Origin: Flavobacteriales bacterium
GTDB lineage: Bacteria; Bacteroidota; Bacteroidia; Flavobacteriales_D; Crocinitomicaceae
Assembly (NCBI GenBank): GCA_947476955.1
Contig: CANJSS010000015.1
Span: forward strand, 1-35,423
Direction: 5' to 3'
Length of the DNA stretch: 35,423 bases
The notes under the pieces are model-generated. The model worked only from the letters and a program-made list of their open reading frames with translations. It had not been told where the DNA came from and did no database searches. How positions within the stretch are numbered: the first letter of the stretch is position 1; each line of letters starts with the position of its first letter. The translations under genes were made by a program, and so were the position numbers. Positions 16,965 through 23,465 of the stretch are shown in pieces.

Positions 16965-18092
16965 GTGAGAATCGGAATAAATACGCGTTTTTTATTGTCT
17001 TCAAAAATGGAGGGGTTCGGCTGGTATACATTCGAGATTGTAAAACGCATAGTTGAAAATCATCCGGAGCATGATTTTATTTTCTTTTTTGATAGACCGT
17101 ATGCTGAAAATTTCATTTTTAGCAAGAACGTTACGCCAGTTGTAATTTCTCCACCTGCACGACATCCCCTGTTATTTATTTACTGGTTTGAAATTGGAAT
17201 TAAAAGAGCATTGAAAAAACACAAGATTGATGTCTTTTTCTCTCCGGATGGATACGTATCGCTTCAAACAAATGTTCCTCAAATTGGTGTAATTCACGAT
17301 ATTAATTTCAAACATTACCCAAAAGATTTACCGCCATCTGCGCGTTTTTATCTCAACTACTTTTTTCCGCGTTTTGCAAAAAAGGCAGCTAAACTCATTA
17401 CTGTTTCTGCGTATTCAAAGGAAGATATTATTCGAAATTACCACATTGAGCCAAAAAAAATTGTTGTTGCTTGGAATGGCGCTTCGAGCGTTTTTAAACC
17501 TGTTTCAGAGGAAATAAAAATTGCAGTTCGTGAAAAACATGCTGGAGGAACTGACTTTTTTCTATTTGTTGGAGCAATACATCCTCGGAAAAATATATGC
17601 CGTTTAGTGGAAGCCTTTATAAAATTTAAACAGGATAGTAATTCTCCTGTCAAACTAATTATTGTGGGTGAATCGCTTTGGAAGAACAAGACTTTTTCAG
17701 CGCAAATACCAGAATCACTGCAACGGGAAATCTGCTATACTGGTCACCTTCCATTGGAAGAACTTGCATTAATTACCGCTTCTGCACTTGCTTTAACGTA
17801 TGTTCCTTATTTCGAAGGCTTTGGGATTCCATTGGTGGAAGCAATGAAATGTGGAACGCCTATTCTTTCTGGAAATCTTACCTCTTTACCAGAAGTTGCA
17901 GGAGATGCTGCATTGTATTGTGATCCTTTTAATACAAGTGATATTGCCAATAAAATGGAAGAGCTAGTTTCCTCTGAAAATTTACGAAAAGAATTATCCT
18001 CAAAAGGACTCGAGAGAAGTAAACTTTTCAGTTGGGATACCGCTGCAGCAATTGTTTGGGAGGAAATTGTATTACTTGCTAATCCTTCTTAA
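16965..18092 (+). CDS. GT4-family glycosyltransferase
   Basis: This 375-aa protein begins at a GTG (16965), giving MRIGINTRFLLSSKMEGFGW, a typical GT-B start with the Gly-rich loop. The C-terminal Rossmann half holds FLFVGAIHPRKNICRLVEAF (donor-binding strand plus KN/R motif), then TYVPYFEGFGIPLVEAMKCG with the E-x7-E-type signature, then SGNLTSLPEVAGDAALYCDP. It retains the sugar configuration and uses a nucleotide sugar; neither donor nor acceptor can be told. It follows the MBL hydrolase by 12 nt, and its stop overlaps the convergent DUF420 gene by 4 nt. It probably serves envelope polysaccharide assembly. Confidence 0.93.
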   Translation: MRIGINTRFLLSSKMEGFGWYTFEIVKRIVENHPEHDFIFFFDRPYAENFIFSKNVTPVVISPPARHPLLFIYWFEIGIKRALKKHKIDVFFSPDGYVSLQTNVPQIGVIHDINFKHYPKDLPPSARFYLNYFFPRFAKKAAKLITVSAYSKEDIIRNYHIEPKKIVVAWNGASSVFKPVSEEIKIAVREKHAGGTDFFLFVGAIHPRKNICRLVEAFIKFKQDSNSPVKLIIVGESLWKNKTFSAQIPESLQREICYTGHLPLEELALITASALALTYVPYFEGFGIPLVEAMKCGTPILSGNLTSLPEVAGDAALYCDPFNTSDIANKMEELVSSENLRKELSSKGLERSKLFSWDTAAAIVWEEIVLLANPS

Positions 18093-18661
18093 ACGTAATA
18101 TGGGCAAATCATAAAGTAAACCACAACTCCTGAAACGGCTACATAAAGCCAAATTGGAAAAGAAAAGCGCGTCCATTTTTTATGTTTTACAAAATCTCCT
18201 TGCCAAGCAAAAAGATACGTAAACAAAACAAGTGGAATTACAGCGATACTCAAAAGAATATGTGAAATCAGCAAGGTATAATAGAAATATGCCATTGCCC
18301 CAATCGTTGCTTTCTCTAGAATGTCCAAACTTCCGTTTCCATTGGAATCTCCATATATAGTTGAGTCGGAAGTCATGTGGTAAGCGACATATAATAAAAG
18401 GAACACAACAGATAATCCCAATGCAATTCGAATCAACGCGCGGTGTAATTCTTTGTTTTTATTTTTTATGGCTACTAGCGCACTAATTAAAAAAACAGCT
18501 GTAAGTGCGTTGATTCCAGCATAAATAGCCGGAAGAAAAGATAAATCAATACCGCCAATTTTCACTTTGAATAAGATAGCAACAGCAATTGGAATAACTA
18601 CTGACAAAGTGATTATCAGCTTTCGTGTGTTTTTTAATTTTGATTGATCAATTGTTTCCAT
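18089..18661 (-). CDS. DUF420 membrane protein of the oxidase cluster
   Basis: This 190-aa protein has five likely membrane helices at about residues 14-32, 41-64, 76-95, 121-152 and 166-187. The family, related to CtaM/YozB, is linked to cytochrome oxidase assembly. Conserved-type His residues occur in the helices: H73 in KELHRALI, H95 in YVAYH and H134 in LISHILL. Its start overlaps the Sco gene stop by 14 nt, so it is cotranscribed and last in the operon. The exact role is not established; heme or copper handling during oxidase maturation is the usual suggestion. Confidence 0.88.
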   Translation of the reverse strand: METIDQSKLKNTRKLIITLSVVIPIAVAILFKVKIGGIDLSFLPAIYAGINALTAVFLISALVAIKNKNKELHRALIRIALGLSVVFLLLYVAYHMTSDSTIYGDSNGNGSLDILEKATIGAMAYFYYTLLISHILLSIAVIPLVLFTYLFAWQGDFVKHKKWTRFSFPIWLYVAVSGVVVYFMICPYYV

Positions 18662-19307
18662 ACTCTACTTTTAATAATTTACGTATATCTTTTTCTAATT
18701 GAGTTACTTGTTTTTCATCTGTTCCAAGGTAAACACCGCGCACAAATCCTTCTTTATCCACCAACGTAAAAGCCCCAGAATGCGCGTAACCTCCTTCAGA
18801 TTCGTCATCTCTACCGGCAAAAATCTGAAAATTCTCTATTCCCAACTGGTGGGTTTCTGCTTCTTTTCCGGTGAAAAACTGCCAATTGGATGCCGTTGCT
18901 TTATAATGTTCTCTGTAGCGCTTAAGTTTTGAAGGAGTATCGTGCTGCGGATTTATGCTGATGGAAATAAATTGTAAATCGTCGTGTAAATCTTTGGTTG
19001 CAGCATTCAATTTTTTCATGTTTTTCGTCATGGTCGGACAAATGGTTGGACAGGTAGTAAAAAAGAAATCTGCCACCCAAACCTTACCTTTCATATCTGT
19101 AGATTTTACAAGAACTGAATCATCATTCAAAAAATAGAAAAATGGAATTGTAGGGTAAATGGTATCCGTAACTTCCTTGCCATCTATTAATTTATATTCA
19201 ATATCGTAGTTTCCGATGAATGGCAAAGCGTGTTTCTTTTCGTTTATAGCTGAGCATGCAACTAAAAAGAAAACTAAGAAAAGCGCTGAAAAAAAGTTCA
19301 TAACCAT
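18648..19307 (-). CDS. Sco family copper chaperone, lipoprotein
   Basis: This 219-aa thioredoxin-fold protein is anchored by a lipobox (FFLVAC, Cys18). The copper site is complete: C86 and C90 in TTCPTICPTM, and H176 in GGYAHSGAF. Sco proteins deliver or reduce copper for the CuA centre of cytochrome oxidase subunit II. Start options are Met1 or Met3. It is followed by the DUF420 gene (14-nt overlap) and preceded by a second, altered Sco-like gene 15 nt away. Family and site are clear; specificity for this oxidase is inferred from the operon. Confidence 0.93.
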   Translation of the reverse strand: MVMNFFSALFLVFFLVACSAINEKKHALPFIGNYDIEYKLIDGKEVTDTIYPTIPFFYFLNDDSVLVKSTDMKGKVWVADFFFTTCPTICPTMTKNMKKLNAATKDLHDDLQFISISINPQHDTPSKLKRYREHYKATASNWQFFTGKEAETHQLGIENFQIFAGRDDESEGGYAHSGAFTLVDKEGFVRGVYLGTDEKQVTQLEKDIRKLLKVEYGNN

Positions 19308-19322
19308 AAAACGGGAAATTAT

Positions 19323-20003
19323 TTAATTTTTAAGCTTGGCATTTTCTTTATCGTATTGTTTTTGAAGCAAAGCAATATGCTCCTTCATCCTTCGAATCAT
19401 TCCTTCGGAAGTTCCAGAAAGCACCATTCTTAGATGATTTTGTTTATCTACTAATAAAATTAACTCTTGATATGCCTGGCCTCCAAAAAACTCGTCCCCT
19501 TCTGCTAAAAGTGATTTATTGTTTCTTTCAATATCGTATACTTTTTTTGAGTCACCAGATGCAAGAATCCAGGTATCGGGATCGTACTCCAAAACATTGT
19601 CTTCCATAGACTGTCGCAAAACAGAAAGATCATTCACTGGATTTCCTTCTCCGTCAGTTACAAAAGAAATAATGCGCACGCGTTTCATTTTCTTTCGTTT
19701 GTTGTTGCGAATATGCTGATAAATCGCCTGATTCATGTGCCAGAAAGAAATTGAACAGGTATCGGGACATGTTTCTTGCAGGGTTGTGATTAAAACAATG
19801 TCGCCTTTGAAATCTTTGGAAGTGAATTTTTTTCCGCGTGCATCCGTAAATGAATAATCCGTCACTGCACCAAAATCATCCAATGTTTTGAACTTATGCT
19901 CACAACCACGGGTTGAAATGAACACCAATAAAAAAGCCGGACCAAATAAAAGTAAAAATGCGTACATTACTTTCAATCGTCCGGCAGTATTTTTAACAGC
20001 CAT
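19323..20003 (-). CDS. Sco-like thioredoxin-fold protein lacking the copper-site His
   Basis: This 226-aa protein has one N-terminal membrane anchor (about residues 13-30) and a Sco/TlpA-like domain facing the periplasm. C79 and C83 form CPDTC, the Sco CxxxC spacing. Aligning GGQAYQELILLVDK (174-187) with GGYAHSGAFTLVDK of the neighbouring Sco places Y178 at the copper-binding His. It may therefore be a thiol-disulfide reductase for the oxidase or Sco rather than a copper carrier. The C-terminus is a charged helix. It sits between the CoxIV gene (12 nt) and the true Sco gene (15 nt). Confidence 0.85.
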   Translation of the reverse strand: MAVKNTAGRLKVMYAFLLLFGPAFLLVFISTRGCEHKFKTLDDFGAVTDYSFTDARGKKFTSKDFKGDIVLITTLQETCPDTCSISFWHMNQAIYQHIRNNKRKKMKRVRIISFVTDGEGNPVNDLSVLRQSMEDNVLEYDPDTWILASGDSKKVYDIERNNKSLLAEGDEFFGGQAYQELILLVDKQNHLRMVLSGTSEGMIRRMKEHIALLQKQYDKENAKLKN

Positions 20004-20015
20004 AGTTGCTGAAGA

Positions 20016-20384
20016 TTAAACTCCGTATGTTTCTAATGCATTACCAACTGCCAAAGCTTCTGTTAAAGCAATGAAAATCAAGTACAACATAAAAAGGAAA
20101 TAAGGAACTAGAATGATATATCGCAGCGTTTTTTTCTCTTCACCCAAATGCATGAATACCAAAACAATGTAACCTGCCTTCAACAAAGTCATTGCGATAA
20201 AGGACCACTTCACAACTTGCCAAATGTCAGAGGATTGTTTGATATAAGCTCCTAAAAGAACTTCTATCGCTGTGATGACAGTTAACAATGCTGTAACTTT
20301 CCAGATTTTCTTGCGAATTAATTTACCATGCTCTTCGCTATGGTGTGTATCTAAAGAATATTCTATAACGTCGTCTCTTTCCAT
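20016..20384 (-). CDS. Cytochrome c oxidase subunit IV family protein
   Basis: This 122-aa protein has three predicted helices at about residues 28-48, 57-77 and 87-110. The GYIVLVFMHLGEEKKTLRYI segment matches the prokaryotic subunit IV family (COX4_pro), and its position directly after two CoxIII genes supports this. It is a small, non-catalytic membrane subunit that stabilises the oxidase. A His/Glu-rich N-terminal tail (THHSEEHGK) faces the cytoplasm. Spacing is 21 nt from CoxIII and 12 nt to the Sco-like gene. Confidence 0.9.
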   Translation of the reverse strand: MERDDVIEYSLDTHHSEEHGKLIRKKIWKVTALLTVITAIEVLLGAYIKQSSDIWQVVKWSFIAMTLLKAGYIVLVFMHLGEEKKTLRYIILVPYFLFMLYLIFIALTEALAVGNALETYGV

Positions 20385-20405: not shown

Positions 20406-21434
20406 TTATACTAAATAGAAGAAGGTAAATACAAATACCCAAACTAAATCGACAAAGTGCCAGTAAAGTCCAGTTTTTTCAACCATTTCATAATGCCCTC
20501 TTTTATGGTATTTTCCAGAAATAGCTCCCAAAAGAATGATAATATTAATCATTACACCAGAGAAAACGTGAAAACCGTGGAATCCTGTTATGAAAAAGAA
20601 GAACTGCCCGTATTGTTGCGGTCCGTATTCATTTTCTTCCAAGTTTGCTCCATAAATTACGGTATGCGCCTCACCACTGTATATTGCATCATAATACAGT
20701 TTACGTGCAAGTTTGTGGTCGGTTATTTTATCCCCTGCTTTGTGTTTCAAACCATCTTTTTTGACGATTAATTCCATGTGCTCATCCGCTTCTTTTATGA
20801 TTTTCGCTTTTGAACCATCGTGCAAAGTAATCGTACCATTGTAAATTTTTCCTGCAACAACCGCATGTTGGAATTCGTGCATTAGGTCGTCCTTAATTAC
20901 GTCTCCTTTTTTATGGTGAAATCCGGCTTCGGTTACTGTAAAGTTTTTGATTTCACCAAAATGTCCTTTAACAATTGCCTGGGCTCCATCTGCCAATTCC
21001 ACTTTTCCGAATTCAGAACCATGGATGAAGTGACTCCATTCCCACGCTTGTGAACCTACAAAGAAAAAACCGCCGATAATTGTTGCAATCATCCACTTAA
21101 CAACTCCTTTTTTATCCATTCTATGTCCAGCTTCAACAGCCAAAACCATCGTTACGGAAGAAATAATTAAGATAAATGTCATCAAAGCGACATACAACAA
21201 TGGATAACCATGACCTAAGAAAGGCATGGAATTAAACGTTTCTTCACCAATAGGCCAAGAATCCTGCGCATCGTGACGCGTAAAACCGTAAGCGATTAAT
21301 AGTCCTCCAAATGTCAAAGCATCCGACACAAGGAAAAACCACATCATTAACTTTCCATAGCTTGTACTAAATGGGGAAACTTTCCCACCCCAAAGTGTAG
21401 AAGCATCCATTTGTTTAGAAGTGTCTCCTGCCAT
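20406..21434 (-). CDS. Cytochrome c oxidase subunit III with duplicated periplasmic insert (copy 2)
   Basis: This 342-aa protein is a five-helix subunit III with helices near residues 27-50, 78-101, 112-132, 276-303 and 323-341. Conserved parts are SDALTFGGLL in helix one, GSQAWEWSHFI after helix three, FFFFITGFHGFHVFSGV in helix four and YWHFVDLVWVFVF in helix five. Between helices three and four, on the predicted periplasmic side, residues 137-272 form a soluble insertion. Residues 145-185 and 202-242 align without gaps (shared LxDG, then GxxHKxGDxIxD), an offset of 57, so the insert is a tandem duplication. It is cotranscribed with the other CoxIII gene (21 nt) and the CoxIV gene. Confidence 0.9.
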   Translation of the reverse strand: MAGDTSKQMDASTLWGGKVSPFSTSYGKLMMWFFLVSDALTFGGLLIAYGFTRHDAQDSWPIGEETFNSMPFLGHGYPLLYVALMTFILIISSVTMVLAVEAGHRMDKKGVVKWMIATIIGGFFFVGSQAWEWSHFIHGSEFGKVELADGAQAIVKGHFGEIKNFTVTEAGFHHKKGDVIKDDLMHEFQHAVVAGKIYNGTITLHDGSKAKIIKEADEHMELIVKKDGLKHKAGDKITDHKLARKLYYDAIYSGEAHTVIYGANLEENEYGPQQYGQFFFFITGFHGFHVFSGVMINIIILLGAISGKYHKRGHYEMVEKTGLYWHFVDLVWVFVFTFFYLV

Positions 21435-21455: not shown

Positions 21456-22514
21456 TTAGTGAATAAAAAGTAAAAAAAGCAATAAATAAGCCCATAAAAG
21501 ACCTAAAAAATGCCAGAAAATTGCACCGACTCTAAGGCTTAGATTCTCTTCGGAGGTAAACTTGCCTGAAAATGAGGCTATTGTCAGTTTTGACATGTAA
21601 ATCAATGTTACTAAAATGTGCATCAAATGCAAGAAAGTAATTATGTATAAATAGGAAGTTCCGGTGTCGGATGATTCCATTGCTTTAATTTGAAGGTATC
21701 TCGACAATTTTCTACCATTCATTTGTAAGGTTCGATCTTTGTATTCCAACTCTTTTCCTTTGTATAGTAACTTGAAGTCTTTCCCGATTTGACCTTTCAC
21801 AAAGAAATCTCCTCTACCATCTCGAATATTGATGGAAAGATCTTTCAGGCGCATTTGGTCAACGTATTGAATTTCTTTTCCATCTGGAGTGCATAATTTA
21901 GTGTTTACCAATCCAAGCGGTTGGCTCTTGTAATACAAAACGAACTTTTTTCCATAGTCTTTAATTTCGAAAGATTCGTTGCGTTTCAAAGTCAAAAATT
22001 GATTAGCGAAGGCCTGCAATTCTTTCATTTGAGCGGCAGTTAAATTTTTACCATTTAACTTGTAATCGTTTCCATCGACTTCTATGAACGAGCCGTTATA
22101 TTTTATCTCGAAATAATCCCCGTATCGACCCTGAGTTACAATGATGTGGTTATTTACAGCGTGTGCTCCGAAACTAGTTAATTGCTTGTATCCTTGAAAT
22201 TGAAAATAAACGAAGGAAATCCCTGAAATTAAAGTCAGTGCAATAAAAAACCGCAACATTTTCTGGTTGTTTTTCTTGACGAAGTGTATGGCCATTTGCA
22301 AGAAAAAACTGCTCAAAATAATAACCACTGTACTTACCCAAAAACCATTTGGCATTGGATATTTTAGCCAGAATGAATCGCCCATCGAAACGATATATGC
22401 AGATGTAAATCCTGCAAATAACATTATTATGCTAAAAATTCCGACGTAAACAAGATTCTTCTTCGTCTTTTCCCTAATTTCCGGGCTTAATTCTTTTTCA
22501 TAATCTACTCTCAT
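21456..22514 (-). CDS. Cytochrome c oxidase subunit III-like protein with large insert (copy 1)
   Basis: This 352-aa protein has helices near residues 20-42, 58-80, 86-106, 288-309 and 326-350, as in five-helix subunit III. The last helix holds FWHFLGLLWAYLL, the conserved end of the family. Residues about 107-285 form a soluble insert between helices three and four, predicted periplasmic, which nearly doubles the length compared with bare five-helix subunits III. The insert has an internal repeat: residues 134-158 and 246-270 align without gaps with shared F, Y, G, E, NG and L, each preceded by a GR-GD(Y/F)F motif. It starts two bases before the ctaB stop at 22517, so the genes are tightly coupled. 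Confidence 0.88.
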   Translation of the reverse strand: MRVDYEKELSPEIREKTKKNLVYVGIFSIIMLFAGFTSAYIVSMGDSFWLKYPMPNGFWVSTVVIILSSFFLQMAIHFVKKNNQKMLRFFIALTLISGISFVYFQFQGYKQLTSFGAHAVNNHIIVTQGRYGDYFEIKYNGSFIEVDGNDYKLNGKNLTAAQMKELQAFANQFLTLKRNESFEIKDYGKKFVLYYKSQPLGLVNTKLCTPDGKEIQYVDQMRLKDLSINIRDGRGDFFVKGQIGKDFKLLYKGKELEYKDRTLQMNGRKLSRYLQIKAMESSDTGTSYLYIITFLHLMHILVTLIYMSKLTIASFSGKFTSEENLSLRVGAIFWHFLGLLWAYLLLFLLFIH

Positions 22515-22516
22515 AC

Positions 22517-23416
22517 TTAAAATAATTGTTTGATTGCTTCGGCATTTCTATCAAAAACATATAAAAACTGAATCACTGGTAAATAAACAAACGAGGCGAA
22601 CATAAGTTTACGTGCATCTTTTGTTTCGCAGGAAATATATAATTTATAGGCATATAAGAAAAATACAGTGCTAGCAATTGTTGCTATAATTAGCGTTGGG
22701 ATTCCCGTCCATCCAAGAATCCAAGGCAACAAACTAAATGGAATCATTGCAAACGAATAGACAAGAATTTGAAATGCAGATGCGCTAGATTGTCCTTTTG
22801 ACGAAGGCAATAACGAAAAACCTCCTGCTTTATAATCATCGTATAAAACCCACGCAATTGCCCAAAAATGAGGGAACTGCCACATAAATTGAACGAAAAA
22901 AAGTACCCCAGGAAGTAACCCAAAATCGTTCGTTGCAGCGATTGCTCCAAGCATTGGCGGAATAGCGCCAGGAAATGCGCCAACAAAAACTGCCCATGGC
23001 GAAATGCGTTTCATTGGGGTGTAGACAAATACATATAATATAAAAGCCGCCAATCCTAGAAGTGCAGAATAAATATTGATTAGAAATAATAAATAAGTTC
23101 CTGCAAGCAATGAAACCACAACAAGAGTATATGCTTCCTTTACCGACATTGTTCCCATTGGAATCGGTCGGCGCTCCGTACGTTTCATTAATTTATCTAA
23201 ATCGCGTTCCCAAATTTGATTGGAACCATTTGAAGCTGCAGTTACGAGAGTTCCGCCAAGGAGTAAATAAAAAATATGCAACCCATTATTTCCGCCAGCA
23301 AATAGATACCCAGATAATGCTGAAAGTACAACGAGTGAGGCTAATCGAAATTTTGTAAATGCGTTATAAATTTGTATTTTTTTTCCTAGTGACATTTGTT
23401 GAGTTGGGACCTCCAT
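22517..23416 (-). CDS. ctaB: Protoheme IX farnesyltransferase (heme O synthase)
   Basis: CtaB/CyoE is an integral-membrane UbiA-type prenyltransferase that adds a farnesyl group to heme B, making heme O for the oxidase. From the ATG at 23414-23416 it is 299 aa, the usual size. The first Asp-rich motif is NQIWERDLDKLMKRTERRP (66-84, with D72 and D74); the second region is YDDYKAGGFSLLP. About eight to nine helices are visible. The frame is open to a Met at 23464, but that would cover the -33 promoter element at 23462-23465, so 23416 is chosen (23395 is also possible). It is the first gene of the oxidase operon. Confidence 0.94.
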   Translation of the reverse strand: MEVPTQQMSLGKKIQIYNAFTKFRLASLVVLSALSGYLFAGGNNGLHIFYLLLGGTLVTAASNGSNQIWERDLDKLMKRTERRPIPMGTMSVKEAYTLVVVSLLAGTYLLFLINIYSALLGLAAFILYVFVYTPMKRISPWAVFVGAFPGAIPPMLGAIAATNDFGLLPGVLFFVQFMWQFPHFWAIAWVLYDDYKAGGFSLLPSSKGQSSASAFQILVYSFAMIPFSLLPWILGWTGIPTLIIATIASTVFFLYAYKLYISCETKDARKLMFASFVYLPVIQFLYVFDRNAEAIKQLF

Positions 23417-23433
23417 GAATAAAAATTGCACGA

Positions 23434-23465
23434 CAAAAGTAATGAAATTAACTACCTGCATCAAA
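23434..23465 (-). promoter_or_regulatory. Promoter of the oxidase operon
   Basis: On the minus strand TTTG (23465-23462) is followed by 20 nt and then TACTTTTG (23441-23434), an exact fit to the Bacteroidota -33/-7 promoter. The transcript would start near 23430, about 14 nt before the ctaB ATG at 23416, and it supports that start. Confidence 0.7.

Follow-up and report, generated by a model that had tools for sequence, protein, structure and literature searches.

The window considered here, a stretch of 35,423 nucleotides, holds a compact oxidase gene cluster on its minus strand in which two adjacent genes encode proteins of the subunit III type (CoxIII copy 1 and copy 2), each with an insert in the loop between helices 3 and 4. 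The copy 1 reading frame is intact and encodes 352 aa (21456–22514, minus strand). It is separated by 2 bases from ctaB and by 21 from copy 2, after which come subunit IV (21 bases), the first SCO gene (12), the second SCO gene (15) and the DUF420 gene, which overlaps its neighbour by 14 bases. The features, with their evidence where applicable, are as follows.

22517–23464, minus strand: UbiA prenyltransferase of the heme O synthase type (ctaB-like), 2 bases upstream of copy 1
21456–22514, minus strand: CoxIII copy 1 (P0001, 352 aa), five-helix subunit III-like protein (open reading frame, PF00510, fold match)
22173–22484, minus strand: copy 1 helices 1–3, residues 11–44, 56–80 and 84–114 (AlphaFold2 model)
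21969–22136, minus strand: copy 1 insert unit 1, about residues 127–182 (unit profile, AlphaFold2, hhalign)
21801–21968, minus strand: copy 1 insert unit 2, about residues 183–238 (unit profile, AlphaFold2, hhalign)
21666–21800, minus strand: copy 1 insert unit 3, about residues 239–283, adjoining helix 4 (unit profile, AlphaFold2, profile–profile comparison)
21465–21665, minus strand: copy 1 helices 4–5, residues 284–315 and 325–350, with the His pair and the WHF..LW motif (AlphaFold2, alignment)
20406–21434, minus strand: CoxIII copy 2 (P0002, 342 aa), which looks like a canonical subunit III and has another insert in its helix 3–4 loop (PF00510, AlphaFold2)
20847–21017, minus strand: copy 2 insert unit 1, about residues 140–196 (AlphaFold2, hhalign)
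20670–20846, minus strand: copy 2 insert unit 2, about residues 197–255 (AlphaFold2, hhalign)
20016–20384, minus strand: oxidase subunit IV, COX4_pro (Pfam)
19323–20003 and 18648–19307, minus strand: two SCO1/SenC proteins of the copper-site assembly type (Pfam)
18089–18661, minus strand: DUF420 membrane protein, the last of the cluster considered (Pfam)

Of the 135 loci examined, which include one unusable stretch of 100 bases (L055), 134 have copy 1 and 132 have copy 2. The two genes are neighbours on the same strand at all 132 loci that have both (130 inside the set distance, and 2 whose frames overlap a little more), which bears out the earlier note in describing adjacent subunit III paralogues, and ctaB adjoins copy 1 in 128 of the 132 rows with enough flank.

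Subunit III character of copy 1

The PF00510 profile matches copy 2 clearly (53.6 bits) and copy 1 over residues 286–349 at 20.7 bits, which is below the curated cut-off of 23.8. Among the relatives of copy 1, the profile scores above the cut-off for L070 (33.1), L071 (28.2) and L077 (30.4) and below it for L053 (19.1). The AlphaFold2 model of copy 1 aligns with the bovine chain 1v54_C at Z 19.8 and rmsd 1.7 over 178 residues (model 11–352 on chain 72–261), the top 41 structure matches are solved subunit III chains (Z 15.7–19.8, 173–189 residues aligned) and the match lists of the whole-model structure searches are led by subunit III. As modelled, copy 1 is well supported as a subunit III fold and a counterpart of bovine helices 3–7. 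The bundle is the same as in five-helix subunit III (CtaE, CyoC and QoxC types; helices 3–7 of mitochondrial COX3), and the His pair of helix 4 and the WHF..LW motif of helix 5 are shared with the five-helix subunit III of A-type oxidases, but copy 1 has about 158 added residues in the helix 3–4 loop. Both His of the pair occur in 133 of the 134 copy 1 rows, with one gap at each position.

Unlike canonical subunit III, copy 1 has no carboxylate in helix 1, at what we take to be the position of bovine Glu90. The residue is Ile in 86 rows, Val in 17, Met in 12, Leu in 9 and Ser in 8, with 2 gaps, and it is acidic in none of the 132 rows that have a letter there; copy 2 has Asp in 132 of 132. The Asp of the last-helix WHF(V/L)D motif is less evenly distributed, with Gly in 70 copy 1 rows, among them that of the window, Asp in 60, Ser and Ala in one each and 2 gaps, against Asp in 130 copy 2 rows and 2 gaps. 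On these alignments copy 1 is best named a subunit III-like, divergent paralogue, because it lacks the helix-1 carboxylate found in every copy 2 row. The loss of this residue in copy 1, next to a copy 2 that retains it, points to a pairing of canonical and non-canonical subunit III in the Bacteroidota sampled.

Three tandem units in the copy 1 insert

Both the AlphaFold2 model and the comparison with solved subunit III confirm the earlier placement of the insert between helices three and four. The insert had been put at 180 residues, but the net insertion is about 158, the loop being 190 residues long against 29–32 in insert-less relatives. The report that residues 134–158 and 246–270 align without gaps was reproduced (BLOSUM62 score 37, 7 of 25 identical). 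The best ungapped 25-mer diagonal (135/247) reaches 41, whereas shuffles average 19.5 (sd 5.8) and 2 of 200 attain that score, and within the single P0001 sequence this ungapped comparison is by itself only suggestive of a repeat.

A unit profile built solely from the loops of 20 relatives with one unit finds three places in P0001 (E 0.003, 0.0023 and 1.5e-7). The first two values are no better than the best obtained from 610 shuffled loops (19 domains below 0.01, lowest E 0.00092) and were therefore weighed only through the family. At E ≤ 0.1, all three positions are matched in 39 of 49 three-unit proteins, two in 8 and one in 2; none of 490 shuffled loops is matched at all three. Among the 49 are at least two duplicate pairs, L029/L065 and L026/L058, whose tree columns do not differ. 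At E ≤ 0.001 all three are found in only 6 of the 49, so units 1 and 2 have diverged. The comparisons by hhalign relate the copy 1 units to one another with probabilities of 95.9, 97.6 and 97.7% and relate units 1, 2 and 3 to the one-unit profile with 95.0, 96.7 and 98.9%; unit 3, beside helix 4, is the nearest to the lone unit of the relatives. Several of the short relatives align with an early stretch and the end of P0001, on either side of their single unit.

The AlphaFold2 model of copy 1 (64 aligned sequences, pLDDT 90.1, pTM 0.78) has three beta-beta-beta-alpha units, the first strands of which start at residues 135, 191 and 247, exactly 56 residues apart. Unit 1 consists of strands 135–139, 142–147 and 150–153 and helix 160–171, unit 2 of strands 191–195, 201–203 and 206–208 and helix 217–231, and unit 3 of strands 247–251, 257–259 and 262–265 and helix 272–280. 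The internal repeat that had been noticed is thus real, as the 39 of 49 proteins against 0 of 490 shuffles attest, but it has three units and not two: the two segments first recognised belong to units 1 and 3, their spacing of 112 residues equals two 56-residue periods, and the middle unit starting at 191 had been missed. A GR-GD(Y/F)F motif, said to precede both segments, was rejected as a feature of the repeat. Its two occurrences are out of register, with GRYGDYF (129–135) in unit 1 and GRGDFF (233–238) at the end of unit 2, and the unit 3 counterpart of GRYGDYF is GQIGKDF (241–247).

It is very probable that the anatomy of copy 1 is as described and that a beta3-alpha unit of about 50–56 residues was duplicated in tandem. 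On this evidence the helix 3–4 loop has grown by duplication of one such unit, with the unit most like that of the one-unit relatives beside helix 4 and two more copies between helix 3 and that unit. The copy 1 insert is a well-structured, lineage-restricted tandem repeat, and its anatomy is as firm as a prediction can make it. Known-family matches to the unit are weak (YvbH_ext in Pfam, E 0.1; Csm5 among PDB sequences, E 0.015). No further copies of the insert were found in the same genome at E ≤ 1 beyond the copy 1 insert, nor in plasmid records at E ≤ 0.01. A heme or copper site in the insert was considered and rejected, as a reading through P0001 found no CXXCH there and His and Cys are few (means of 1.8 and 0.4 in the 49 three-unit forms).

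Distribution and constraint

Copy 1 loop lengths are stepped. The 134 loop rows, which comprise the relatives of the window and the best 80 of at least 553 confirmed matches and are not a random sample, have loops of 29–32 residues (52 rows), 55 (1), 78–96 (20), 133–135 (2), 168 (1), 173 (1, a PA14 insert), 188–202 (49) and 255–261 (7), with one row truncated. The three-unit forms keep to 188–193 residues in 48 of 49 cases, and within the window's own family the loop is 188–191 residues long in 32 of 33 rows, the remaining row being truncated. The longest loops (L035, L036, L037, L071 and L073–L075) apparently contain three units and about 70 further residues, possibly another diverged unit, and the loops of L044 and L045 (133–135 residues) have one unit-profile match and about 56 residues that the profile does not recognise.

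Copy 1 is matched in 55 of the 60 genomes of relatives, in 244 of the 245 genomes (completeness ≥90) surveyed in the order of the window, where every frame among the matches listed was at least 241 aa, and in 89 of 118 genomes of a phylum sample. The best-match frames in the 25 genomes with a match that share the class but not the order of the window are 188–208 aa, which leaves no insert, and at least two further genomes of the same class and other orders in the phylum sample returned no copy 1 match. The one genome of the order survey in which copy 1 was not matched (G127, 96% completeness) belongs to the window's own family and could represent an assembly gap or a true loss.

On a tree built by a quick method from the helices alone (129 rows, leaving out L023, L024, L054, L069 and L119), seven loop-length classes require 12 changes, against a minimum of 6 and a shuffled mean of 61.8 with none of 200 shuffles as low, and a division into loops above 70 residues and shorter ones requires 3 changes, one of which is the PA14 protein, though several placements are on long branches. 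Two loci titled Chryseobacterium gleum (L056 and L058) carry a copy 1 of the window-family type, L058 being identical to L026 in the tree columns, and these assemblies are probably mislabelled. The copy 1 of Lishizhenia tianjinensis (L065) is identical to that of family member L029 in the same columns, which makes Crocinitomicaceae the probable family of the window. The ratio dN/dS is 0.016–0.163 for the insert in 13 of 14 close pairs, with one pair saturated, and 0.018–0.109 for the helices in the 14 pairs; the ratios are rough because several dS values exceed 1, and they indicate that the insert is under purifying selection and clearly kept.

Membrane side of the insert

The periplasmic position that had been assumed for the insert is supported by homology. 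The helices of the copy 1 model match bovine TM3–TM7, so the insert loop corresponds to the bovine helix V–VI loop, which we take to be on the outer side, and would face outward. A Cytophagaceae copy 1 (L077:5947–6954, plus strand) has a PA14 domain (PF07691, E 5.1e-20) in its helix 3–4 loop and so resembles copy 1 of the window in holding a whole domain at that place, but the domain is single and from an unrelated family. PA14 domains are typically extracytoplasmic, which agrees with an outer-side loop.

ACIII and a possible docking role

The genome of the window has an ACIII gene cluster that is directly followed by coxB and coxA. It encodes a multiheme ActA-type protein with an N-terminal cytochrome c domain, ActB, an NrfD-type ActC, ActD and an ActE-type cytochrome, and at the place of ActF it encodes a protein without a Pfam match. 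The best match of ActB is 6btm_B, subunit B of a solved ACIII that presumably comes from F. johnsoniae, and ActD was found in 55 of 60 relatives. A PF00116 search of the genome returned nothing; as coxB is present (L138:13031–14293 on contig C30, 420 aa, weak COX2 match at E 0.0055), the search missed a divergent protein. The CuA motif of this subunit II, CNKICGGSHYKM, has Lys where the published motif CXEXCX3HX2M has Glu, and its first His is apparently more distant than X34. Complete-looking frames of its relatives range from about 383 to 577 aa, and subunit II may carry insertions too.

According to published reports, ACIII and the oxidase of F. johnsoniae make contact via a five-helix subunit III (PMC8361435), and this oxidase pairs with ACIII such that electrons may pass directly from ActA (PMC8552683). 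For R. marinus, the I/III subunit is described as placed next to ActC and beneath ActA by fitting to a 20 Å map, in a supercomplex architecture that differs from that of F. johnsoniae (PMC5928083); because the two architectures differ, docking placed by analogy is unsure. The subunit III equivalent likewise makes the complex III contact in the III2-IV2 supercomplexes of M. smegmatis and C. glutamicum, with CtaE/CtaF named for M. smegmatis (PMC8361435). The partner in those supercomplexes is a cytochrome bcc complex, unlike ACIII, and the CtaE-type chains matched in this study, at 184–206 residues, are too short for an insert like that of copy 1. The F. johnsoniae aa3-ACIII supercomplex comes from the same phylum as the window genome, with its ACIII cluster, coxB and coxA, and the five-helix subunit III at its contact may be the counterpart of copy 1 or of copy 2. 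Flavobacteriaceae loci have two adjacent subunit III genes, as in the window, but differ from it in having no copy 1 insert (15 of 15 loci). As F. johnsoniae presumably belongs to Flavobacteriaceae, the insert would not be needed for ACIII pairing in general.

In the proposed arrangement both inserts would project into the periplasm and together raise a platform for docking on the outer side of the aa3 oxidase. ACIII would be held there so that the cytochrome c domain of ActA reaches the CuA of subunit II, and copy 1, lacking the helix-1 carboxylate, would act as a structural docking subunit and not as a canonical subunit III. By analogy with the solved supercomplexes, a periplasmic docking role of the copy 1 insert for ACIII is possible but is put forward tentatively. 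The explanation as a whole, in which a tandem-grown loop is combined with ACIII docking, has in our judgment somewhat less than an even chance of being correct. The net charge of the insert is unsteady (mean +1.8, range −9 to +10, in the 49 three-unit forms; −4.5 in 20 one-unit forms; −11.6 in the 7 longest), which counts against a conserved electrostatic dock, as does the occurrence of 52 of 134 copy 1 rows with no insert against a conserved dock in general.

The same variability of charge would fit an insert that is a structural or protective cap without a specific partner, enlarged in ratchet-like fashion by duplication after a first beta3-alpha unit had been tolerated in the exposed loop, and kept for the stability of the fold. 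Such a cap would also be in keeping with a loop length that varies among families yet is near-constant in the window's own family, with the unrelated PA14 domain tolerated at the same site and with the presence of an insert in the corresponding loop of copy 2. We consider it somewhat unlikely, given that dN/dS is about equally low in insert and helices, that units 1 and 3 have invariant positions across 23 aligned sequences and that the three-unit loops vary so little in length.

A landing site for assembly proteins, likeliest the two downstream SCO proteins during assembly of CuA, is a further alternative and an improbable one. The two SCO genes and ctaB share a tight cluster with gaps of −14 to 21 bases, and ctaB adjoins copy 1 at nearly all loci, but oxidase and assembly genes ordinarily cluster, and the scarcity of His and Cys in the insert gives no sign of metal transfer.

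Relation between the two inserts

The docking proposal draws on both inserts, which the earlier note had regarded as independent insertions at one site. The AlphaFold2 model of copy 2 (64 sequences, pLDDT 81.9) has two beta3-alpha units in the helix 3–4 loop with a spacing of 56–57 residues. By hhalign, these units match each other with 93.6% probability and match the one-unit relatives of copy 2 with 89.2 and 82.9%. The 12 comparisons of copy 1 with copy 2 units and one-unit profiles gave 0.1–14.4% in 11 cases and 38.8% in one, while helices 4–5 of the two copies, taken as a control, gave 98.0%; the scaffolds are therefore homologous and the inserts probably not. Independent insertion is thus mostly supported, with 11 of 12 comparisons at or below 14.4% and a weak hint of common ancestry in the twelfth. 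The two inserts are probably unrelated in origin, as judged from their sequences, a remote link between them being less likely.

Such a link would require that one of the two copies gave the other a beta3-alpha unit, or that the unit predated their duplication, and that it has since diverged greatly. The shared beta3-alpha order, the 56–57 spacing and the common loop would fit, as would the 38.8% match (E 3e-4), but this match covers 16 columns only and the 14.4% match falls on the same columns and is not independent of it. In both, the start of a copy 1 unit is paired with the middle of copy 2 unit 1, and the other ten comparisons reach only 0.1–4.9%. Strand lengths also differ between the units of the two copies, and 52 of the 134 copy 1 rows lack one, all of which makes a common origin rather doubtful.

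Separate origins are in keeping with the distribution of the loops. At all 15 loci labelled Flavobacteriaceae (L085, L099 and L116 among them) the copy 2 loop has 139–168 residues and copy 1 has no insert, so the two loops grow separately. Loci L031–L033, from three genomes of the window's family, combine the complete insert in copy 1 with a short loop of 44–64 residues in copy 2. Copy 2 loops of at least 80 residues and shorter ones are separated by 12 changes on the helices tree, and the co-occurrence of the two inserts gives 2 contrasts on supported branches, which is too few for a correlation; parallel selection, as the earlier note suggested, is a possibility at most.

That the copy 1 insert is a frame or assembly artefact, a doubt raised at the outset and to which the fragmentation of the assembly into 179 contigs might lend itself, has a negligible probability, as insert-bearing open frames of 34–97% identity over the full length occur in other assemblies, including that of Lishizhenia tianjinensis strain CGMCC 1.7005 (L065), copy 1 is held by 55 of 60 related genomes and loops of 188–191 residues recur in 32 of 33 rows of the window's family.

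Wider significance

Subunit III belongs to the best conserved components of respiratory oxidases, and what it does is still under debate. A literature search of titles and abstract openings returned nothing on subunit III inserts in Bacteroidota, which is not proof of absence. The copy 1 loop provides a natural series at one fixed place, with none, one, three and apparently more units, and is accompanied by a second, probably unrelated series in copy 2 and by a third lineage with a PA14 domain. The role of the outer face of subunit III in ACIII-oxidase supercomplexes is therefore testable by comparison and by deletion, and the series is an unusual one for asking how an oxidase docks its electron donor. 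A broader reading, which we hold to be unlikely, is that this oxidase would have two subunit III folds, copy 2 as the canonical subunit and copy 1 as a dedicated docking subunit, its arm lengthened or shortened from one bacterial family to another by whole units of about 56 residues so as to fit ACIII, with a separately evolved arm on copy 2. The copy 2 insert (20670–21017, minus strand) is rich in His, with a mean of 9.8 in 45 relatives where the copy 1 insert averages 1.8, and several of its His are near-invariant (H173, H186, H190 and H205).
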